A stretch of 12,388 nucleotides of DNA from Deltaproteobacteria bacterium. GTDB taxonomy: Bacteria > Desulfobacterota > DSM-4660 > Desulfatiglandales > Desulfatiglandaceae. Below the pieces are notes generated by a model. That model was given only the letters and a program-made list of their open reading frames with translations. It was not told the DNA's origin and ran no database searches. The position numbers and the translations under genes were made by a program. The DNA lies in contig JAFDJF010000302.1 in assembly GCA_019307645.1 (NCBI GenBank), positions 1 to 12,388 on the forward strand, in the 5' to 3' direction. This document shows positions 1 through 10,093 of this stretch, one piece after another; the stretch's first letter is position 1; every line of letters begins with the position of its first letter.

Positions 1-143
1 GTGCCCATCCATAAATGGTCTTTTTGTCCAATATCTGCGTTATGCTCAAAAAATAATCCTCGGAATATCAACTATATGCCTGCGGTTATTTTTTTCGCAT
101 GCCTTGATCTTGAATAAAAATCCTCATTTATGGATGGACACTA
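1..143 (+). repeat. Family A palindromic element, copy 1 (window edge)
   Basis: This element of about 145 bp is bounded by complementary ends: GTGCCCATCCATAAATG on the left and CATTTATGGATGGACAC on the right. Inside is a second stem (ATGC..AAAAAAT against ATTTTTT..GCAT) enclosing a 33-bp core at 55-87 that begins AATCCTCGGAATATCAAC and ends GCCTGCGGTT. The core is identical to the reverse complement of 9951-9983 and matches 25 of 33 positions at 6642-6674. Copy 2 starts with TA before GTGCCC, so this copy probably begins just outside the window. There is no coding capacity. I do not recognise it as a named element. Confidence 0.85.
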
Positions 144-498
144 ACTAATAACCAGCGGCCCTCTTGAGGACCATTTCTGGATGAAAACTAACTGATCTTT
201 TTTCAGAGATCAAGAAATAATGCTCTACTCAGGTTGTTAGGTTCACGGTTCAGCGGTTCAGAGGTTGTGGATCAACCGTGAACCGTTGAACCCTGAACAA
301 CCTAAATTACATCAGGTGTAAGGTATAAGGAAAGCGGTTCGGGGTAGACGGTATCATGAAAAAGTACTGCGCTATATACCGATTACAATACGGCTTATTC
401 ATTGACACGCTGATTGACTGGGGCTATGATATGGTCCATTGCGATGAGCCACATCAAAACTTTTTTCTGTTGTGCGCTCTATTTTTTTGGGTGACTCA
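144..498. other. Gene-poor leader region
   Basis: Apart from the heptamer hairpin at 231-304 and its extension to about 341, I see no supported gene here. A 60-codon open frame (356-538) has no family resemblance, no convincing ribosome binding site, and runs into the family B palindrome, so I treat it as chance. A small stem, TGATCT (193-198) with AGATCA (207-212), is not followed by a T tract and is not called a terminator. Confidence 0.5.
231..304. repeat. Inverted pair of degenerate heptamer arrays (GGTTCAN type)
   Basis: The left array reads in steps of seven from 240: GGTTCAC, GGTTCAG, CGGTTCA, GAGGTTG. The right array from 273 reads CAACCGT, GAACCGT, TGAACCC, TGAACAA and is roughly the reverse complement of the left, closing on AGGTTGTT/AACAACCT. 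The two arms are almost adjacent, so the whole unit can fold into one imperfect hairpin. It continues at 314-341 as another seven-step run (AGGTGTA, AGGTATA, AGGAAAG, CGGTTCG). Confidence 0.7.
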
Positions 499-690
499 AC
501 CCCAACGTTGCATAAAATTTGAGTTCAAAACGCTCTAGATGAGGTCAGCAAGGGACGTTTGGCCATTTTCAAGGACGAAGGCGTATTGAGCATACGGTGA
601 GGTCTTGAAAATTGGACAAACGTTTCTTGATGGCCTTATATAGAGCGAGCGTAGCGCTTTTGGGCCAAAGATTTATGCAACGTTGGGGTC
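499..690. repeat. Family B long palindrome, copy 1
   Basis: Terminal arms CCCCAACGTTGCATAAA (500-516) and TTTATGCAACGTTGGGG (671-687) are exact reverse complements. Inside, the left half from 531 (CGCTCTAGATGAGGTCAGC, then ACGTTTGGCCATTTTCAAG) pairs imperfectly with the right half ending at about 646 (CTTGAAAATTGGACAAACGT, then TTGATGGCCTTATATAGAGCG). The apex lies near 577-600. The element is thus one long imperfect hairpin of about 190 nt. It shares only its terminal arm with the copy at 2119-2299. No transposase is present, so a MITE-like origin is an inference. Confidence 0.75.
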
Positions 691-747
691 AACGCTGTGG
701 TTTTTGATCGTTTCGAGAACAATTGAGATAAGGAGAACCCCAAGCGC

Positions 748-933
748 ATGAAATTGCTGTTCTGCCTGATAGGGCTTGTACTCTTTGTTGAAGGTCTTCC
801 CTACTTTATCTCTCCCGGTAAGATGAAGAAATGGATGTTAACCATCCAGGAAATCCCGAATCCGCATCTCAGGACCATGGGGCTCATTGCGATGGCTCTG
901 GGCCTCTTGATAGCCTATTTCTTCAAAGAATAA
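748..933 (+). CDS. DUF2065 family (YjeT-like) small membrane protein
   Basis: This 61-residue protein has two predicted membrane segments (about residues 2-19 and 42-58) separated by a short basic, amphipathic linker. The pattern is an N-terminal hydrophobic helix with VEGLPYFISP, then KMKKW, a short LR motif and a second helix ending in a charged tail. It matches the DUF2065 family, whose E. coli member YjeT has about 65 residues. Its function is not established. A purine-rich AAGGAGA lies around 730-735, about 12 bases before the ATG, which is slightly long spacing but usable. It lies between the family B palindrome and queA and is separated from queA by 116 bp, so co-transcription is possible but unproven. 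Family assignment is from memory of the pattern, without a profile search. Confidence 0.8.
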   Translation: MKLLFCLIGLVLFVEGLPYFISPGKMKKWMLTIQEIPNPHLRTMGLIAMALGLLIAYFFKE

Positions 934-939
934 AATCAG

Positions 940-968
940 TTGACTTTAAAATGGTTCTTGTCTAACGT
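940..968 (+). promoter_or_regulatory. Candidate sigma70-type promoter for queA operon
   Basis: TTGACT (940-945) matches the -35 consensus at five of six positions. With a 17-bp spacer it faces TAACGT (963-968), a poor -10 matching three of six. It lies in the 116-bp gap before queA, the only gap where a promoter for the whole queuosine/Sec cluster could lie close by. The weak -10 keeps this tentative. Confidence 0.3.
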
Positions 969-1049
969 ACGCGACTTAAATCCGGATTTCGCAGTAGCCG
1001 CCGTAACAGTTTAGGGTTGTGAAACCGGGTCAGGCACTAAATTACATAG

Positions 1050-2105
1050 ATGTTCGACATAGAGGACTACAATTACGATTTGCCGCCGAGTTTGATCGCG
1101 CAGGTTCCAGTTTCAAAACGGGATCATTCCCGTTTGTTCGTGGTGGATCGTCGAAAAAAATCCTTTTCTGACTGTCATTTCTTTGATCTTCCCAAACTGC
1201 TCAAGCCGGGTGATCTCATTGTCGTAAATGATACCAGGGTTGTCCCGGCAAGGCTTTTTGGCCGTAAAGAAAGCGGAGGTCAAGTCGAAATACTGGTGCT
1301 GGAGTACCCTGACCCGGCAGATGAAGACCCTTTAACGCGCTCCTGCCTGCTGAAATCGTCCAAGCGGCCCAAAACAGGGAACCGCCTGTTTTTTGATTCC
1401 GGTGTTTCAGGACAGGTCAAAGAGGTACTGGATAACGGCCGGGTCAGGATTACATTTGAGGGGGAACGGTCCGTTGACTCTCTGCTTGAAGAAAAAGGGC
1501 ACATGCCATTGCCACCCTATATCAAGCGGGAACTCAATGGCACCCATTCCCAGCTTGACAAGCAGCGATATCAGACGGTTTATTCCAAACGGAAAGGTGC
1601 TGTGGCAGCGCCCACCGCGGGCCTTCACTTTACAGGGGATCTGATCAGGGAACTGGAACAGGCCGGAATCTCTCTGGTTCCTCTGACCCTCCATGTGGGG
1701 TACGGGACATTCCGACCCGTTCGGACAACGGATATCAGAGACCATATCCTGGGAAAGGAATCCTACAGGATTGAACCGGAGACCGCTGAAGTCATCGAGC
1801 AGACCCAAAAGAAAGGCGGGAGGGTCGTTGCCGTTGGCACCACGGTTGTACGGACCCTGGAAACAGCTGTCGATACAAACGGTTCTGTTGCTTCGGGAGA
1901 AGGGAACACCGAACTCCTTATCACGCCCGGTTTTTCTTTCAATGTGGTTGATACACTGATTACAAACTTTCATCTGCCAAAGAGTTCTCTGCTTTTCCTG
2001 GTATCGGCATTTGGGGGTCTGGAACTGATAAAAGAAGCCTACAGGCTGGCCGTTGAAAAAGGATACCGCTTTTACAGCTACGGGGATGCCATGCTGATTG
2101 TGTGA
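1050..2105 (+). CDS. queA: S-adenosylmethionine:tRNA ribosyltransferase-isomerase QueA
   Basis: QueA transfers and isomerises the ribosyl moiety of S-adenosylmethionine onto preQ1 at tRNA position 34, giving epoxyqueuosine in the cytoplasm. At 351 residues it is full length (E. coli about 356). Family signatures appear in order: DYNYDLPPSLIAQVP with RDHSRL near the N terminus, GDLIVVNDTRVVPARLFG at about residues 54-71, GAVAAPTAGLHFT at about 183-195, HVGYGTFRPV at about 216-225, GGRVVAVGTTVVRTLE in the 250s-270s, NFHLPKSSLLFLVSAFGG in the 300s and a C-terminal YRFYSYGDAMLI. The ATG at 1050 fits the family N terminus, although only a weak GTCAGG-like sequence precedes it. It is followed by tgt, the usual partner, but a family B palindrome separates the two. 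I see no damage to the frame. Confidence 0.97.
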   Translation: MFDIEDYNYDLPPSLIAQVPVSKRDHSRLFVVDRRKKSFSDCHFFDLPKLLKPGDLIVVNDTRVVPARLFGRKESGGQVEILVLEYPDPADEDPLTRSCLLKSSKRPKTGNRLFFDSGVSGQVKEVLDNGRVRITFEGERSVDSLLEEKGHMPLPPYIKRELNGTHSQLDKQRYQTVYSKRKGAVAAPTAGLHFTGDLIRELEQAGISLVPLTLHVGYGTFRPVRTTDIRDHILGKESYRIEPETAEVIEQTQKKGGRVVAVGTTVVRTLETAVDTNGSVASGEGNTELLITPGFSFNVVDTLITNFHLPKSSLLFLVSAFGGLELIKEAYRLAVEKGYRFYSYGDAMLIV

Positions 2106-2118
2106 AGGCAAAGGTTTA

Positions 2119-3403
<1,285 letters not shown>

Positions 3404-3407
3404 AAAA

Positions 3408-3414
3408 AGGAGGT
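3408..3414 (+). promoter_or_regulatory. Strong ribosome binding site of yajC
   Basis: AGGAGGT lies six bases before the yajC ATG, directly after the tgt stop codon. It is the only near-perfect Shine-Dalgarno sequence in the window; queA, tgt, secF and the TPR gene all have weak ones, so yajC may be translated more strongly than its neighbours. Confidence 0.75.
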
Positions 3415-3420
3415 TTTAAA

Positions 3421-3744
3421 ATGGATGTTTTGGCTTACGCAATGGGAACCGGGGGTTCGGGCTCTTCAGGAGGAGAAGGTGCAGGCTTCATTTCCTTTGT
3501 CCCTCTGCTTCTTATGTTCGCGATCTTTTATTTTCTGCTCATCAGACCCCAGCAGAAAAAATCCAAGCAACACAGGGAATTGCTTGGCGCCTTAAAAAAG
3601 GGAGACAAGGTTGTCAGCTCGGGCGGACTCCATGGTACTGTGACCGGCCTGACGGATGATGCGGTGACCATGGAGATCGCCCCCAAGGTGAGGGTAAAGG
3701 TCTCAAGAGGTTCTATCTCCGCTGTTGTGGCCAAGGGCCAATAA
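3421..3744 (+). CDS. yajC: Preprotein translocase subunit YajC
   Basis: YajC is the small membrane partner of SecD and SecF in the accessory complex of the Sec translocon. The 107-residue product has a glycine/serine-rich N terminus (residues 9-22), one membrane helix at about 23-42 ending in the family motif LIRPQQKKSKQH, and a small cytoplasmic domain with the typical LKKGDKVVSSGGLHGTVTG and a short beta-rich tail (VTMEIAPKVRVKVSRGSI). Length and layout match the family (E. coli 110 residues). The gene is 17 bases after tgt and 28 bases before the preferred secD start, so the three are almost certainly one transcript. Confidence 0.96.
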   Translation: MDVLAYAMGTGGSGSSGGEGAGFISFVPLLLMFAIFYFLLIRPQQKKSKQHRELLGALKKGDKVVSSGGLHGTVTGLTDDAVTMEIAPKVRVKVSRGSISAVVAKGQ

Positions 3745-3760
3745 ACTCAAAAACTCGTTC

Positions 3761-3766
3761 AGGGAG
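3761..3766 (+). promoter_or_regulatory. Ribosome binding site deciding the secD GTG start
   Basis: AGGGAG sits six bases before the GTG at 3773. It supports that codon over the in-frame TTG at 3725, which lies inside yajC and would add 16 non-conserved residues before the first membrane helix. Confidence 0.55.
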
Positions 3767-3772
3767 CAGCAA

Positions 3773-5377
3773 GTGTCAAAAAACTTAGTTTGGCGGGCAG
3801 CAATTGGCTTATTCGCGATTTTGATGGCATTTATTTACCTCACCCCTTCTCTCACCGATGAGCTCCCATCATGGTGGGCCAGCATCCTGCCTCAGGACAA
3901 AATTCATCTCGGCCTCGACCTTCAGGGTGGTATGCATCTTGTGCTGGAAGTACAGTCCTTAAAAGCCGTGGAAAGCCACCTTGAAAGAGTCGTGGAAGAG
4001 CTGAAACACGATTTCCGAAAAAGCAAGATGAGATACCTGAAACTGGTACGCCATGGCACCAGGGAGGTTAGCGTTACATTAATCAGGGAAGAAGACAGTG
4101 ACAAGTTCAAAAACATGGCGGAAGCCAATTACCCTGATTTCGAGATGACGACAGTATCGAAAAGAGATGGGAAGCCATTCTTCAGCCTTGTTCTGCGTGA
4201 CGAACCAGTGACCCGAATAAAAAAAATGGCCGTGGACCAGGCCCTGGAGACAATCCGGAACAGAATTGATCAGTTTGGCGTCAGTGAACCGGACATCAGA
4301 CCACAGGAAAACGACAGGATCCTTATCCAGCTGCCCGGGGTCAAAGACCCGAAGAGAGCCATGGACCTCATCGGCAAGACCGCCTTTTTGGAATTCAAAC
4401 TGGTGGATGATGAATACAGTGTTGAGGATGCACTGAAGGGAAACATCCCGCCTGGACATGAGATCCTTTACCAGTACACTAGAGACCCGAAGACCGGCCT
4501 CCAGATGAAAACCACCCCTTTTCTGTTGAAAAAGAGGGCTCTTCTTACAGGGGAGTATATAACCGATGCCAGGGTTCAAATCGACAACCGGGACAATACA
4601 CCCTATGTTTCTCTTTCATTCAACTCCAGGGGCGCAAAACTATTTGAGCGGGTTACCGGAGAAAACATCAGGAAAAGGCTGGCCATTGTCCTTGACAACA
4701 AAGTTAATTCTGCGCCTGTAATCCAGGATAGAATCTCCGGTGGGAAAGCTCAGATTTCCGGGCGTTTTACCATGGAGGACGCGCGTGATCTGGCCATTGT
4801 CCTGAGGGCAGGCGCCCTGCCTGCACCGGTCAAGATTATTGAGGAAAGGACCGTGGGGCCTTCTCTCGGAAAAGACTCAATTGAAAAGGGCCGCAAGTCC
4901 ATGATCATCGGCGGCATTCTGGTTCTCATATTCATGATGATTTATTACAATCTGTCCGGCATCATTGCTGATCTGGCCCTATCGCTGAATATTCTGTTTA
5001 TTATGGCGGGCCTTGCCTTTTTTGGCGCCACGCTGACCCTTCCCGGGATCGCCGGGATGATCCTCACCATTGGTATGGCGGTTGACGCCAATGTATTGAT
5101 TTTTGAACGCATCCGCGAAGAACTGCGGCTGGGCAAGACGCCTCGATCCGCCATTGAGGGAGGATTCTCAAAGGCATTGGTTACGATTATTGATGCAAAC
5201 GTCACGACACTGATCGCTGCACTGGTATTGTTCCAGTTTGGGACCGGTCCTGTCAGAGGATTTGCGGTTACGCTCAGCATTGGTATCGTAGGAAGTCTGT
5301 TTACAGCAATGTTTCTGTCCAGAATCATCTTTGACTATCTGTATGTGTATAAGAGGATAAAAAAAATCAGCATTTAA
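3773..5377 (+). CDS. secD: Protein translocase subunit SecD
   Basis: SecD works with SecF and uses the proton motive force to help complete protein export through SecYEG. With the GTG start at 3773 the protein has 534 residues: membrane helix 1 at about 6-25, the hallmark HLGLDLQGGMHLVLEV at about 46-61, a large periplasmic P1 region (about 62-375, including DIRPQENDRILIQLPGV and TGEYITDARVQ), then a cluster of five membrane helices carrying GMAVDANVLIFERIREEL (from about residue 434). The frame opens farther upstream at a TTG (3725) that overlaps yajC, but AGGGAG at 3761-3766 with six-base spacing and the normal N terminus (short basic stretch, then helix 1) favour the GTG. It is intact. secF follows after 139 bp containing a hairpin element. 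Confidence 0.96.
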   Translation: MSKNLVWRAAIGLFAILMAFIYLTPSLTDELPSWWASILPQDKIHLGLDLQGGMHLVLEVQSLKAVESHLERVVEELKHDFRKSKMRYLKLVRHGTREVSVTLIREEDSDKFKNMAEANYPDFEMTTVSKRDGKPFFSLVLRDEPVTRIKKMAVDQALETIRNRIDQFGVSEPDIRPQENDRILIQLPGVKDPKRAMDLIGKTAFLEFKLVDDEYSVEDALKGNIPPGHEILYQYTRDPKTGLQMKTTPFLLKKRALLTGEYITDARVQIDNRDNTPYVSLSFNSRGAKLFERVTGENIRKRLAIVLDNKVNSAPVIQDRISGGKAQISGRFTMEDARDLAIVLRAGALPAPVKIIEERTVGPSLGKDSIEKGRKSMIIGGILVLIFMMIYYNLSGIIADLALSLNILFIMAGLAFFGATLTLPGIAGMILTIGMAVDANVLIFERIREELRLGKTPRSAIEGGFSKALVTIIDANVTTLIAALVLFQFGTGPVRGFAVTLSIGIVGSLFTAMFLSRIIFDYLYVYKRIKKISI

Positions 5378-5425
5378 AAACGGTGATTGCTGCCTGTATT
5401 TTTTGGGGGAAATGCACAGGTATCC

Positions 5426-5481
5426 CATCTAAGGGTTCGCGCAAAAATAAATTCGCATTTTTGCGCGAGCCCTAAGACGGG
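5426..5481. repeat. Family C short hairpin element, copy 1 (between secD and secF)
   Basis: AGGGTTCGCGCAAAAA on the left pairs with TTTTTGCGCGAGCCCT on the right around a loop of about ten bases (TAAATTCGCA). Flanking CCCATCTA and TAAGACGGG extend the stem almost perfectly to 5426-5481. The same unit recurs at 9607-9650. There is no T tract after the stem, so it is not a normal intrinsic terminator. Its place inside the secD-secF gap suggests transcript processing or partial attenuation, which is inference. Confidence 0.8.
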
Positions 5482-5516
5482 CACTCAATAATTATAACAA
5501 CGTGTTGGGGTAATAA

Positions 5517-6566
5517 ATGGAGTTCATTAAACCCGGGATTAACATTGATTTTATTGGAAAACGAAAAATTGCATTCGTGTTTTCCGCCATGATGGTTCTC
5601 GCAACCGTTTTCCTGCTCATCTGGAGAGGCGGACCGAATTACGGCGTTGATTTTTCAGGCGGTGTGTTGGTGCAGATCCAACTGGATCAGAAACGAACGC
5701 CGGCCGAAATCAGAAAGGCGCTTAAACCGGTTCAGCTTGAGGACAGCATCATTCAGGAATTCGGGGAAGAAGGTCAGTTTGAGTATCTGATTCGGATCAG
5801 AAAAACAGACGTCGAGCTGACAGGTTTGAGTGAAAAAGTAAAACAGGCCCTGATGCTGGAATTCGGTCAGACCGTTGAAATGAGGCGAGTAGAAATGGTG
5901 GGACCGAAGGTGGGCGAAGACCTGAGGCAGAAGGCGCTGTTTGCAATCTTCTACGCCATCCTCTTCATTGCAATCTATATCTCGGGACGATTCGAACTCA
6001 AGTGGTTAATGAGCATCGTCCTTGCCGTGTCACTGGCCCTTGTTGTCACCATCGCTTCCGGCTTTGGCATGAGCGTCACCTGGCTCATCTTTATCGCCAT
6101 GATCGTAACCCTCGGGCTGTGCTGGTTCCTGAAACTGAAATATGCCCTGGGAGCCATTGTTGCACTTATTCACGATGTGCTCATAACGATTGGGGCCTTT
6201 GCCTTGACAAACACGGAAATCTCTCTTTCCATCATTGCCGCGATCCTCACAATTGTGGGATATTCTCTCAATGACACCATTATTGTCTTTGATAGAATCA
6301 GGGAAAACCTGAGACGTTTCCGGAGGCGCCCATTTGAAGAGGTCATGAATGCCAGCATCAATGAGACCCTGAGCCGGACCATCCTCACATCCACCACGAC
6401 ACTCGTTGTTGTTCTGGCCCTTTATCTCCTGGGCGGTAGCGTAATCCATGATTTTGCTTTTGCAATATTGATCGGAATCATCGTTGGAACCTATTCTTCC
6501 GTCTTTGTTGCCAGCCCGGTTCTGTTGATCTGGGAAAGCACGATTGCCAATAAAGGCAAGGGCTAG
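5517..6566 (+). CDS. secF: Protein translocase subunit SecF with extra membrane segment pair
   Basis: This is the partner of SecD in the proton-driven export complex. The 349-residue protein has helix 1 at about 16-36, the family motif NYGVDFSGGVLVQIQL at 41-56, a periplasmic P4 region to about 135, and the C-terminal helices with YALGAIVALIHDVLITIGAF (about 209-228) and GYSLNDTIIVFDRIRENLRR (248-267). It is longer than E. coli SecF (about 323). Between RFELKW (158-163) and LKLKYALGAI (206-214), normally a single continuous RFEW-RFALGA-like junction, about 44 extra residues form two hydrophobic helices (about 165-183 and 187-205). An even number of added helices would keep the topology. The start has a weak GGGG, seven bases upstream. 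All signature motifs are kept, so it is probably functional. Confidence 0.95.
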   Translation: MEFIKPGINIDFIGKRKIAFVFSAMMVLATVFLLIWRGGPNYGVDFSGGVLVQIQLDQKRTPAEIRKALKPVQLEDSIIQEFGEEGQFEYLIRIRKTDVELTGLSEKVKQALMLEFGQTVEMRRVEMVGPKVGEDLRQKALFAIFYAILFIAIYISGRFELKWLMSIVLAVSLALVVTIASGFGMSVTWLIFIAMIVTLGLCWFLKLKYALGAIVALIHDVLITIGAFALTNTEISLSIIAAILTIVGYSLNDTIIVFDRIRENLRRFRRRPFEEVMNASINETLSRTILTSTTTLVVVLALYLLGGSVIHDFAFAILIGIIVGTYSSVFVASPVLLIWESTIANKGKG

Positions 6567-6585
6567 GCATTCAATCAGGCTTAAC

Positions 6586-6730
6586 TAGTGCCCGAACGAA
6601 AACTGTCTTTTTCACCAATATCTGCGTCAGATAAAAATTTTAATCCTCAAAATACTTAATGTATTCCTGCGGTTAAAATTTTGATCTTCCTTGATCTTGA
6701 CGAAAAATCCTAGTTTTCGTTCAGACACTA
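6586..6730 (+). repeat. Family A palindromic element, copy 2
   Basis: It begins 19 bases after the secF stop. The outer ends are TAGTGCCCGAACGAAAACT and AGTTTTCGTTCAGACACTA, complementary apart from two G-T type positions. The inner stem is AGATAAAAATTTT against AAAATTTTGATCTT around the core 6642-6674. The outer arm sequence is unrelated to that of copies 1 and 3, but the spacing of stems, core and the conserved strings CACCAATATCTGCGTCAGA and CCTTGATCTTGA are the same. It sits where a terminator for the queA-secF transcript would be expected. Confidence 0.87.
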
Positions 6731-6811
6731 TCGAATCACGCTAAAGACGTGACCGATGGGCAAGAATTTCGAATGATGAAAGAAGGAATTTTGTCAATTA
6801 TGTAAAAGGTA

Positions 6812-6919
6812 TTAACCACAAAGGTCGCTAAGAAACGCTAAGGCATATAACTTTTCAATCTCATCCTCAGTCATAAACTTGGCGTCAATTGGCGTTCTTG
6901 CCGGTAACAAATCAATCAT
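6812..6919 (-). pseudogene. Possible C-terminal gene remnant
   Basis: A 35-residue open frame on the minus strand reads MIDLLPARTPIDAKF followed by MTEDEIEKLYALAFLSDLCG and a stop. Upstream on that strand the frame runs into low-complexity heptamer sequence (6940-6974), so no full gene is present. The charged, well-structured composition suggests a decayed tail of a real protein, but I do not recognise the family. It could equally be chance. Confidence 0.25.
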
Positions 6920-6939
6920 AGAGCGAAGCGATTCCTTAC

Positions 6940-6974
6940 TTCTACATTCTACATTCGTTATTCGATATTCTGCG
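6940..6974. repeat. Degenerate heptamer array (TTCTACA type)
   Basis: Five consecutive units of seven bases: TTCTACA, TTCTACA, TTCGTTA, TTCGATA, TTCTGCG, followed by GTTC. This is the same seven-base period as the arrays at 231-341, 8885-9114 and 10976-11160 but with a different unit. I see no inverted partner nearby. Confidence 0.55.
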
Positions 6975-7079
6975 GTTCAAAATACTTCCCGCATGGTAAC
7001 AATTCCGGATATTTGAGCTTATTGAGAATCATTAATTTAACCCATTTGACTGACTACTGACACTACCAAAGATTGAATA

Positions 7080-8879
7080 TTGCTGCAAAAGCAAAAAAGA
7101 CAACCACGTTCCACCAGATCGGTCTATTTAAAGGGCCTGCTGGTGATGATTGTTCTCGCCTCCGGCTGGTGGCTCTGGCGAGGACTGTACCCGCCCGACC
7201 CCAGACTAAATTCCATACTGCTGCGCATAAATCATGAACCCCGGCAAATCCTGCCCGGGGAGCCTATCAATTTTCACTCAAGCGATAAAGTCCGGATCCT
7301 CGAAATCTCTACCAATATCCTCTGGAACCTGAATGTTCGTCTGGTATCAGAAGGCTTTGATGTCAACGCACTCAGGCATGAGGATGTAAGACTTTCTTCG
7401 CTCCTGCCGGAACAGAATATTTTTGATCACTATAAGTTCCGGGTCCTGGTTAAATATCGCAACAAGAATCTGGGGCACAATGACTGGGATATCCAGCCAT
7501 ATGCCGAGGACTGGCTGGAAAAGGCGAACGGGACCATAAACGACGAACAGAGAATAGCTGTTCTCGAACATGGCCTCCGGATTCTGCCTGAAGACAGCCA
7601 CATCTGGCGCAGGCTCCTTGACGAATACAAATCGCAAAAGCATTGGAAACGGGCAGCCTCCATGCTTGAGCAAACAGCAGAAAAAGATCCGAATCAGAAG
7701 ATACTCTCCGAACTGCTGGAGGTATACGCCGCCATGTCCAGCAAGGAGAAAATCATTTCGGTCTTGAATAAGCTTATCGAGTTTGACCCGCAAAACCTGA
7801 ATTTAAGGCTCCAGTTGGCAGAGATCCTGGAGGAGAGCAAGAAGTACAAGTCCGCCATAAAACATTATGAACAACTGGTAAAACGGGTTGATAAAAATGA
7901 CAGACTGCCTATCTATAAACGCCTCGGGTATCTCTATACAAAAACATGGCATTACCATAAAGCCATTGTCTATTACCTCAAGGCAATAGAATTAGACAAA
8001 AAAGATGCAAATCTCTACTATAACTTGTCGTATTTATATGATAAAATCAAAGAGAAAGAAAAATCCTATTATTATCTGGAAAAAGCCGCAGGCTTGAAGC
8101 CGAAAGATTCGGAAAGCCGTCTGGTACTGGCACAGAGGCTTATCAAAAAAGGAGACCTCAAAAAGGCCGAAAAATACATCTCAGAGGTCTTGAAGAAAAA
8201 ACCTTCCTCCCTCGAGGCCCTGCTGTTAAAGGCCCGAATTGCGGAAAAACAGGGAAAAAAGCATGAATTAGAGAAGATTTACAGAAAAGTCCTTCGGCTT
8301 GACCCGAAAAATGAGACCGTATTGTATAATCTTGGTGTCCTCAACTACGAATCAGGTGATCTGAAGGCCAGTCTGTCCTATTTCACAAAGTATCTCAAAA
8401 GCCACCCGAAGGACGTATCGGCCCACGAGGTTGTTTTCGACATTTACAAAAAGCAGAAAAATGAAGAGATGGCCTTTAAAAAGGCAGAAATCATTGTTAA
8501 GCTGGATCCGAAAAAGATTGATCTTTATCATTTCATGTTCAATTACCTGAACAGCAGGGGCGATTATAAAGAACTCATCCCTATCCTGGAGCAGGGAATA
8601 AAATCCAACCCCAAGCAGACTGATCTCAGAGAGCAGCTTCTGTTTGCCTATCTCAAGACCGGGAAGGAAGACCTGGCACTTAATCAAATGGATGAAATCC
8701 TCAAGACCAGGCCGAATGATGTGGGTTTGCTGCTCCAAAAGGCCCGCCTGCTGGAAAAGCAGGAAAAATACTCTGACGCGCTGGAAGTCTACAAAAAAAT
8801 TATCTCCCTGTCCCCGGACAATGAAGCGGCAGAAGAAGGCTATCTCAGGCTTAGATTGAAGGGGGTCCGGAACAACTAA
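7080..8879 (+). CDS. Membrane-anchored TPR-repeat protein of unknown role
   Basis: This 599-residue protein starts at TTG 7080. A stop at 7074-7076 closes the frame just upstream, and the first ATG codon lies inside the membrane helix, so TTG is the best start although no clear ribosome binding site precedes it. A basic N terminus (KQKRQPR) precedes one membrane helix at about 18-35, followed by a non-repeat domain (about 40-145), then about a dozen degenerate tetratricopeptide repeats from 155 to 590. Typical helix pairs are YLKAIELDKKDANLYYNLS (299-317) and YRKVLRLDPKNETVLYNLG (401-419). The middle is unusually rich in lysine. Positive residues inside the first helix suggest that the TPR part faces the periplasm. 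TPR domains bind partner proteins; the partner is unknown. It lies after the Sec cluster but is separated from it by 513 bp, so it is probably an independent unit. Confidence 0.85.
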   Translation: MLQKQKRQPRSTRSVYLKGLLVMIVLASGWWLWRGLYPPDPRLNSILLRINHEPRQILPGEPINFHSSDKVRILEISTNILWNLNVRLVSEGFDVNALRHEDVRLSSLLPEQNIFDHYKFRVLVKYRNKNLGHNDWDIQPYAEDWLEKANGTINDEQRIAVLEHGLRILPEDSHIWRRLLDEYKSQKHWKRAASMLEQTAEKDPNQKILSELLEVYAAMSSKEKIISVLNKLIEFDPQNLNLRLQLAEILEESKKYKSAIKHYEQLVKRVDKNDRLPIYKRLGYLYTKTWHYHKAIVYYLKAIELDKKDANLYYNLSYLYDKIKEKEKSYYYLEKAAGLKPKDSESRLVLAQRLIKKGDLKKAEKYISEVLKKKPSSLEALLLKARIAEKQGKKHELEKIYRKVLRLDPKNETVLYNLGVLNYESGDLKASLSYFTKYLKSHPKDVSAHEVVFDIYKKQKNEEMAFKKAEIIVKLDPKKIDLYHFMFNYLNSRGDYKELIPILEQGIKSNPKQTDLREQLLFAYLKTGKEDLALNQMDEILKTRPNDVGLLLQKARLLEKQEKYSDALEVYKKIISLSPDNEAAEEGYLRLRLKGVRNN

Positions 8880-9190
8880 GAGATGAACGTCGAACATCGA
8901 ACGTCCAACGTCGAACACCGAACGAAGGTCAAAGGACCAATGGCGAACCAGGGGTCAAAATGGTCGCCTGACTTCCAAAATAGATATTGTCGTTTTGTGC
9001 TCTTGTTATAATCCAGCAGTTTGTAAAAACGGTCAGAGGTAGTTTAGAATATATAATTGACCGCCAAAGGCGCCCCACAGTTCGACGTTGGACGCTCGAT
9101 GTTCGATGGGCGTTCAGGTTTTTTATAAATCCTTACGCCTCCCGTTCAACGGAAGAACGAATACGTTTTTTCCGGCCCGGCAGCTTATTC
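8880..9190. other. TPR-mutT intergenic region
   Basis: It is dominated by the inverted heptamer arrays at 8885-9114. The mutT reading frame stays open back to 8987, but that extension translates the repeat and is not believed. The TATAAT at 9007-9012 might serve as a -10 for mutT; no matching -35 is visible at normal spacing. Confidence 0.5.
8885..9114. repeat. Inverted pair of degenerate heptamer arrays (GAACGTC type)
   Basis: The left array has six seven-base units, 8885-8926: GAACGTC, GAACATC, GAACGTC, CAACGTC, GAACACC, GAACGAA. The right array, 9080-9114, reads GTTCGAC, GTTGGAC, GCTCGAT, GTTCGAT, GGGCGTT and is close to the reverse complement of the left, with about 26 of 28 bases pairing in the best stretch. 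The 150-bp spacer contains a TATAAT (9007-9012) without a good -35. The left array starts five bases after the TPR stop codon. Confidence 0.75.
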
Positions 9191-9610
9191 ATGACAAAAG
9201 AAAAGCAGAAACCCCATATCCATGTTTCAGCGGGACTGATTCAAAAAGATGGGCGTTTTCTGATTACAAAACGTCCGAAAGGGGGCCACCTTGAAGGCTA
9301 CTGGGAATTCCCGGGCGGCAAACAGGAAAAAGGTGAAAGCCTTAAAGGTTGTCTTGAAAGAGAGATCAAAGAGGAACTGGGCCTTAAGATCCGGGCACAT
9401 TACGTCCCTTTGACGGTAGTTCATGAATATGAAACCAAGGTGGTCTCCCTGCATGTCCTGGATTGTACCATCCTTGGGGGTGAACCAAGGGCCATTGAAT
9501 GCCAGGAATTCAGATGGGTAGCCCCTGCCGATTTTCATAATTATGAATTCCCTCCGCCCGACATGAAAGTGATCGAATTTCTATCCGCCCCACCGGCTTC
9601 TCTCCCTTAG
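9191..9610 (+). CDS. mutT: MutT-type Nudix hydrolase (probable 8-oxo-dGTP diphosphatase)
   Basis: MutT-type enzymes hydrolyse oxidised dGTP so that it is not built into DNA. The 139-residue product starting at ATG 9191 has the expected beta strand IHVSAGLIQKDGRFLITKRP, followed by GGHLEGYWEFPGGKQE and the complete Nudix box G-x5-E-x7-REIKEELGL (about residues 36-58), with the metal-binding REIKEEL glutamates intact. The C-terminal part (EFRWVAPADFHNYEFPPPDMKVI) is like that of MutT proteins, in which the PPAD.K stretch closes the fold. The frame opens earlier (8987), but that extension translates repeat DNA; the ATG gives the normal MutT length. No strong ribosome binding site is seen. The TAG stop lies at the edge of a family C hairpin. 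Other Nudix substrates cannot be excluded. Confidence 0.9.
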   Translation: MTKEKQKPHIHVSAGLIQKDGRFLITKRPKGGHLEGYWEFPGGKQEKGESLKGCLEREIKEELGLKIRAHYVPLTVVHEYETKVVSLHVLDCTILGGEPRAIECQEFRWVAPADFHNYEFPPPDMKVIEFLSAPPASLP

Positions 9611-9650
9611 GGTTCGCGCAAAAGTAAATTCACATTTTGGCGCGAGCCAT
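9607..9650. repeat. Family C short hairpin element, copy 2 (overlaps mutT stop)
   Basis: TAGGGTTCGCGCAAAA pairs with TTTTGGCGCGAGCC around a loop TAAATTCAC that is nearly the same as in copy 1. The first bases of the left arm include the TAG stop codon of mutT (9608-9610). A T tract is lacking after the stem. It might serve as a mutT transcript end or stabiliser, by inference. Confidence 0.78.
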
Positions 9651-9894
9651 TACCCTCTCAGCGCTGATCACTGATAACCGACTCCTGGCAACGCTTCCCC
9701 TTTGGATCTTTTCGACTTCTTTTTTGCCTTTGTCTCTTTCCGGCATTTAATAAATCACACAACATATTGTATTTTTACTTGACTTTTACCTCTATAGGTT
9801 GTAGGTATGGCCAAATTTTGCTTCATAATTTTTTTCTGAATCAGCCGCCGGTATTTTGGCAGACAACACCTTTCTAAAACCTGTTTTCCATCAA
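9651..9894. other. AT-rich gap without recognised gene
   Basis: No open frame of note and no clear repeat is seen between the family C hairpin and family A copy 3. A TTGACT at 9779-9784 resembles a -35, but the following sequence (TAGGTA after 17 bp) is a poor -10. If real, it would point towards the deacetylase gene, whose start is about 300 bp farther on. Confidence 0.45.
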
Positions 9895-10040
9895 TGGAGA
9901 TCTTTGAAAAATGCTCAATTTTGTGCCAAATCAAGAAAGACTAAAATTTTAACCGCAGGCATATAGTTGATATTCCGAGGATTAAAATTTTAGTCTGACG
10001 CCGAGTTGGTGCAAAAGGGGGCGTTTTTCAAAGATCTCCA
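9895..10040 (-). repeat. Family A palindromic element, copy 3 (inverted)
   Basis: Read on the minus strand it aligns with copies 1 and 2. The outer arms TGGAGATCTTTGAAAAATGC and GCGTTTTTCAAAGATCTCCA pair over 20 bases with one mismatch-type position. The inner arms GACTAAAATTTT and AAAATTTTAGTC are perfect complements. The 33-bp core (9951-9983) equals the core of copy 1 exactly. It lies 53 bases before the deacetylase start codon, in the position of a 5-prime leader or promoter. Confidence 0.87.
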
Positions 10041-10093
10041 ATGATGAAATTGACAATAAGTGACAACTCTATGGTTGAACAGAGGAAAAATCT

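Follow-up and report, generated by a model that had tools for sequence, protein, structure and literature searches.

The window, meaning the whole 12,388-nucleotide stretch of DNA that was analysed (contig JAFDJF010000302.1 of a Deltaproteobacteria bacterium of the Desulfatiglandaceae), contains three imperfect palindromes of about 142 bp that share a 33-bp core and have outer arms which are self-complementary but unrelated in sequence from copy to copy. Its genes, recognised by Pfam, form the run queA-tgt-yajC-secD-secF (gene names which we take over from the matched Pfam families), a gene for a TPR protein, a NUDIX gene, a divergent polysaccharide deacetylase gene and an open reading frame (ORF) with an isochorismatase domain. 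All three palindromes lie outside these identified genes; the second is located downstream of secF, and the third lies in reverse orientation in the gap that separates the NUDIX and deacetylase genes. Their features are listed below, the duplications of copy 3 having been read by eye.

1-141, + strand: copy 1, ends GTGCCCATCC...GGATGGACAC, GTGTCC class; its left end is base 1 of the window
55-87, + strand: 33-bp core of copy 1, AATCCTCGGAATATCAACTATATGCCTGCGGTT
6588-6728, + strand: copy 2, ends GTGCCCGAACG...CGTTCAGACAC, GTGCCT class; flanks TAACTA/TATCGA, an imperfect duplication
6642-6674, + strand: 33-bp core of copy 2
9897-10038, - strand: copy 3, ends GAGATCTTTG...CAAAGATCTC, GAGACC class
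9951-9983, - strand: 33-bp core of copy 3, the same sequence as the core of copy 1
9892-9896: left target-site duplication of copy 3, CAATG
10039-10043: right target-site duplication of copy 3, CAATG

The three copies carry ends of three different classes, and the flanks of copy 3 are also nearly inverted-complementary to each other. The core follows the pattern AATCCTC..CCTGCGGTT and a count bore out the identities given by the sequence-only reading, the earlier description in which these repeats were noticed: 33/33 between copies 1 and 3 and 25/33 with copy 2. Folded within slightly wider limits, both DNA strands of all three copies are far more stable than their dinucleotide-shuffled versions (200 shuffles; z from -5.8 to -10.7). 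A covariance model, R1, whose training set includes the three window copies themselves, found only three places in a filter-off scan of the window, each on both strands (E <= 0.011; 147.5, 133.8 and 132.1 bits), the next place having an E-value of 3.8. The three copies are confirmed, with limits a few bases inside those claimed at first.

A scan of genome contigs with the core pattern, as the sequence-only reading had proposed, yielded at least 118 further stretches. Among the matches listed, 93 of 118 have Desulfo- or Deltaproteobacteria in their titles, 13 Proteobacteria/Pseudomonadota only, three Oscillospiraceae (in two metagenome-assembled genomes, MAGs), two Rokuibacteriota and two plain 'bacterium', with one each for Bacillota, Fischerbacteria, Sandaracinaceae, Syntrophobacterales and Syntrophaceae. 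R1, likewise built from copies as had been suggested, also matches relatives. All 19 genomes behind 21 chosen loci, which were picked for having the core, contain matches, from 5 up to at least 150 per genome; in the order of genome G006, 4/8 genomes match (G006 counted, E <= 1e-5), and in the phylum of genome G016 a covariance model matches 33/198 (G016 counted, E <= 1e-8, stricter filters). Of 100 genomes in the family to which one Oscillospiraceae MAG belongs, that MAG alone has the exact core pattern, 17 times. Plasmids gave no match and phages four short pieces at E 0.4, both with window copy 2 as the only query, and viral contigs gave 0 matches to the core pattern. Core-bearing units mostly measure 141-145 bp and are mostly intergenic (9/190 within an ORF of at least 80 amino acids, by a crude caller), with gene neighbours convergent in 32 cases and divergent in 18. 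Genome G001 holds 401 matches to one end motif with at most one mismatch; at C10:16218-16260 of this genome, judged from match positions, two GAGCCA ends stand face to face, 43 bp apart, which suggests ends-only micro-palindromes. The window starts on the first base of copy 1 and several G006 contigs likewise end within copies, a hint that these repeats may break assemblies.

The interior of the element consists of an inner stem, the conserved unpaired boxes GCGTY and CCTTGA, and the apical core. For the analysis of pairing, 111 core matches with 45 nt on both sides were available, 74 of which pass a filter for both boxes. Alignment A1 combined 58 of those 74 with four hand-picked elements, one of them (L097) misplaced; by leaving out eight of these 62 (L021, L022, L027, L044, L074, L094, L097 and L108, misplaced or of other architecture) we obtained alignment A2 of 54 rows, a selection that favours both the boxes and elements of the standard form. 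In A2, 95.2% of the cells are paired compared to 83.4% after shuffling, a measure that favours the structure used, derived as it was from A2 itself. Double changes occur in 20/30 pairs, the alignment exceeds all 500 shuffles in each of the five measures used, and sliding the partner by 1-3 columns lowers pairing to 29.5-45.2%, so that the pair covariation is strong. The stems were also compared by matching each arm with its own partner and with those of others. In the outer arms, the median member pairs at 12/16 or more with its own partner in 11/15 clusters of at least two members, vs 4/210 crosses, the four failing clusters being a longer class and truncated or nested elements; for all clusters the figures are 13/26 vs 11/650. 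These comparisons put the refuting condition of the sequence-only reading to further copies, and its claim of covarying stems stood. The inner 7 bp change in the same paired way, 23/47 distinct left arms matching their own partner at 6/7 or more vs 91/2162 crosses. Early boundary calls often overran the element ends through chance pairing.

Along distinct elements, Watson-Crick pairing falls below 60% at 8-9, 14-15, 17-19, 23, 27-28 and 34-36 bases from the core, with helical zones between. Mean entropy in A2 is 0.46 bits for the box TGCGTC and 0.35 for TCCTT, compared to 1.17/1.19 in the helix between the boxes, 0.77/0.89 in the next helix and 1.26/1.31 in the outer arms. When 109 distinct arm pairs at the exact core were counted without any selection for boxes, the left box was present in 73, the right CCTTGA in 62 and both in 54, vs shuffled means of 3.7, 0.8 and 0.02. 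Unpaired parts are constant while paired parts change, and the boxes are real even without box selection; the combination of a conserved loop with covarying stems, on which the sequence-only reading had built, has therefore held.

This one interior occurs under several ends. The interiors of L235 (GTGTCC ends) and L119 (GAGACC ends) are 93.3% identical, vs 55% for their outer arms; an interior identity of at least 86% is reached by 165/4316 cross-class element pairs, with values up to 95% between differing end labels. GTGTCC-like ends, in turn, are found around another interior as well, one of 187-188 bp (L221, L224, L012, L099 and L100). A near-identical interior under both GTGTCC and GAGACC ends indicates that ends seem to have been exchanged around a shared hairpin. 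The core can also be turned: in L265 it alone is inverted relative to the arms, the single clear case of 176 decided (172 normal, 57 undecided), and the other three of four 'flipped' candidates are box mismatches. A repeated hairpin, TTGCCCTGTGAAATGCGAAGC..., is inserted at one shared point of the core in L249, L252, L254, L257 and L258, elements that belong to two end classes. We did not use the insert shared by L258 and the other four as proof of end exchange, because L063 carries it in another box and it may therefore be site-specific.

The ends of the element classes (among them GTGTCCATCCATAAATG, GTGCCTGAACGAAAAC and GAGACCTTTGCAAAACG) are accompanied by target-site duplications of class-specific length. 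Exact flank matches were compared with shuffled flanks, trying widths of 3-8. A 6-bp duplication was found at 25/72 elements with GTGTCC ends (shuffle mean 2.0, maximum 7) and at 14/28 with GTGCCT ends (3.2, 7), and a 5-bp duplication at 11/53 with GAGACC ends (0.4, 4). Duplications of 4 bp accompany GAGCCA (9/26; 0.45, 2), GAAGCC (5/30; 0.3, 2) and GGAAAC ends (10/17; 1.9, 6). Among later loci, 18 of 27 of which were read by eye, GAGACC ends showed an exact 5-bp duplication in 3/5, and GTG ends an exact 6-bp one in 2/7, with one mismatch in four (one with an uncertain end) and three mismatches in one. The CAATG on both sides of window copy 3 agrees with the 5 bp of its GAGACC class.

Short, without a transposase gene, present in high copy number and bounded by terminal inverted repeats with fixed-length duplications in six classes, the elements have the properties of miniature inverted-repeat transposable elements (MITEs). 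Derivatives have multiplied as well: in G006, one core deletion is common to L256 and L259, with two more matches of the same length, and five elements (L248, L250, L251, L253 and L261) have the same hairpin, resembling a repetitive extragenic palindrome (REP), nested in the core. From these core-deleted and foreign-hairpin copies, an intact core is seemingly not required in cis for multiplying. Of the fold-dependent mobile element that had been proposed, the mobility is upheld by the inverted repeats, the class-specific duplications, the copy number and these multicopy derivatives; its dependence on the fold is not, given the multiplication of copies that have lost the core or taken up a foreign hairpin there. 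The nested hairpin, GTA(G/A)GGGCAC...GTGCCCCTAC, REP-like by eye, occurs at the same core place in eight elements altogether, the other three being L011 7538-7692, L268 and L270.

With considerable confidence, we interpret the three copies as non-autonomous palindromic MITEs moved in trans, members of a modular family in which a shared interior is combined with different ends. Cut-and-paste transposases recognising the terminal inverted repeats would move the elements, and different transposases, to which the class-specific duplication lengths point, would serve the different end classes. The ends may have been swapped by recombination, and arm complementarity would be kept at the DNA level, through template switching from one arm to the other, selection for a DNA hairpin, or both. 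Such switching during replication could also turn spacers round, as seen once in L265. Arm homogenisation and spacer inversion are described as outcomes of template switching between inverted repeats in PMC8604942, and PMC8794818 describes template switching as able to yield multi-base compensatory changes; applying this published mechanism to the present family is our own inference. The unpaired boxes and core might be kept constant as the putative site of a common DNA-hairpin-binding factor, which is a guess. In its furthest form, the family would be a transferable DNA-hairpin core that persists through a change of ends: one conserved interior with at least two internal-loop motifs would repeatedly acquire the terminal repeats of different transposase systems, with both arms rewritten at once by hairpin template switching and the loops kept by a common factor binding the folded strand; this version we consider possible but rather doubtful.

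Several points weigh against the modular MITE interpretation. The long TAAGGG class has exact duplications in 0/9 elements at any width (3-8 tried), and many other copies, window copy 2 among them, are without a perfect one. The duplication lists tolerate four mismatches and so contain chance pairs, and those for GAGACC, GAGCCA and GAAGCC have elements in common. The outer-arm identities in the comparison of interiors stand without a computed baseline, template switching depends on a single clear inversion, and the invariance of core and boxes is partly ascertainment, the exact core having been the search key and the boxes the filter for A1 and A2. Copies without the core have multiplied. Finally, a search for an autonomous partner sharing the ends gave none at PF01609 loci (38 loci, 14 genomes), Y1 (PF01797) loci (30 of 49 matches, 8 genomes), PF13340 loci (6 loci, 22 genomes) or PF05598 loci (17 loci, 20 genomes), a failure that is weak evidence given that many of the searched contigs are short. 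The nearest candidate was an insertion sequence in genome G013 (L304, ends GAGACTGTCGAAAAA), with a transposase of 510 amino acids that is presumably of the IS1182 type; its 11/15 match is reached by 53/3000 random 22-mers and constitutes no evidence. On the supporting side, the GAGACC consensus end equals 15/15 bases of the end of ISNme1 (IS5 family) as printed in Table 2 of PMC4596501, and window copy 3 equals 13/15.

The interiors could instead be alike by plain descent within ordinary MITE families whose ends diverged stepwise without exchange. Some class ends are indeed alike (GAGACC, GAGCCA, GAAG), and gradual divergence is possible there. However, GTGTCC and GAGACC ends have different sequences and duplications of different size (6 bp vs 5 bp) though the interiors reach 93% identity, and the same GTGTCC ends also surround the different 187-bp interior, which makes this explanation unlikely.

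A structured RNA, which the sequence-only reading had considered, or an RNA-dependent element spread as a repeat, would also show covarying stems if a transcribed hairpin bound a protein or controlled an mRNA. Covariation together with conserved internal loops is what such an RNA would display, and in 3/3 window copies (computed as single-stranded DNA) the more stable fold is that of the strand complementary to the core-defined strand, where A-C mismatches would become G-U. The mismatches themselves, however, are without a clear wobble signature. Over the first eight inner pairs, the core-defined strand has 24 G-T vs 63 A-C mismatches; counted once per cluster and context, there are 68 vs 140, of which 106 are C-A. 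As the A-C excess is mostly C-A at recurrent positions, wobble on the other strand is not confidently readable from it and the test is not clean. At 8-9 bases from the core, the mismatches on the opposite strand would often be tandem G-A, pairs that are stable. Among 132 elements with two called neighbours, strand bias is absent, the element's top strand being sense in 36 co-directional cases vs antisense in 46 (p = 0.32); the window has no Rfam gathering match, the remaining Rfam matches being sub-threshold and mostly to microRNA models; and the arms terminate on both sides in inverted repeats of transposon type, flanked by duplications. A structured RNA is, on these grounds, quite improbable: the paired changes resemble RNA evolution, but a DNA-level explanation is probably better.

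Least probable, and very unlikely in our view, is a single-strand HUH/Y1 element of the RAYT type, related to REPs, of which a Y1 transposase would recognise the folded DNA strand: despite the bulged and mismatched hairpin, the presence of Y1 genes in 5/8 genomes tested and the resemblance of GCGTC to the CGTC tag of REPs (PMC3733652), target-site duplications are present, genomes G009, G010 and G011 of these eight have 75, 25 and 143 R1 matches yet no Y1 match, and R1 (E up to 1) lies at 5 places in 3/30 Y1 loci and 4 places in 2/18 DDE loci, by rough estimate about the genome-wide density. Integron attC sites, considered for L043 and L104 on account of their GCATAAC/GTTATGC arms, were rejected: by eye, L043 has what seem to be ordinary genes next to it, and the boxes misfit the RYYYAAC/GTTRRRY pattern.

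Among the hairpin MITEs of bacteria, NEMIS, ERIC, Nezha and Correia elements are each not known to have more than one set of ends; the present family differs from them in placing one interior under several end classes, with differing duplication lengths. They are otherwise likewise short, non-coding elements with terminal inverted repeats, high copy number and hairpin folds. NEMIS, ERIC and Nezha are listed with others in PMC3733652, and Correia elements are covered in PMC4853749. The IS5-related MITEs of Porphyromonas (BrickBuilt, MITEPgRS) share the end motif of the GAGACC class, but BrickBuilt is described as having 23-nt repeat units and putative duplications of varying length (PMC4596501). 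REPs, REP dimers and TIRtrons, with RAYT/TIRYT, are likewise palindromic, with conserved unpaired tags and stems varying between families; REPs, however, measure 20-40 bp and carry a GTAG or CGTC tag (PMC3733652), whereas the present elements are about 142 bp long, their duplications are class-specific, and a linked Y1 gene was not seen. Length, duplications and the 3/8 genomes without a Y1 match set them apart from REP/RAYT systems. In the literature, the core and end strings matched the ISNme1 end of PMC4596501, a primer in PMC5070880 and a FRET paper. Within Rfam and the openly licensed papers searched, nothing describing this family was found, in agreement with the initial remark that no named family fits; queries about MITEs of sulfate reducers, about structured MITEs and about interiors in common found no account of it among these papers either. 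The family, a large one, is apparently unnamed, and its novelty provisional.

Other repeats were seen in the window. A second palindromic family, with ends ACCCYAACGTTGCATAAA, is present at 499-689 and 2118-2300; on one strand its centre reads CCTC-hairpin-CYTTCG by eye, similar to the apical loop in the core studied here. Two short hairpins at 5430-5475 and 9607-9648 have ends TAAGGGTTCGCGCAAAA, like those of a longer core-carrying class in L019, L024, L034, L077 and L080. An inverted repeat of TCGAACATCGAACGT-type units spans 8890-9106 (27-nt arms, 96% complementary, 163 nt apart), and a long hairpin of GGTTCACGGTTCAGCGGTTCA type lies at 240-302.

Compensatory changes are usually taken as a hallmark of functional RNA. 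Strong covariation in apparent DNA transposons calls for caution when RNAs are sought by covariance in environmental genomes rich in repeats; such repeats may also help account for broken assemblies. If the exchange of ends is true, a non-autonomous element could outlive any single transposase by re-ending itself, and the persistence of MITEs would become testable.

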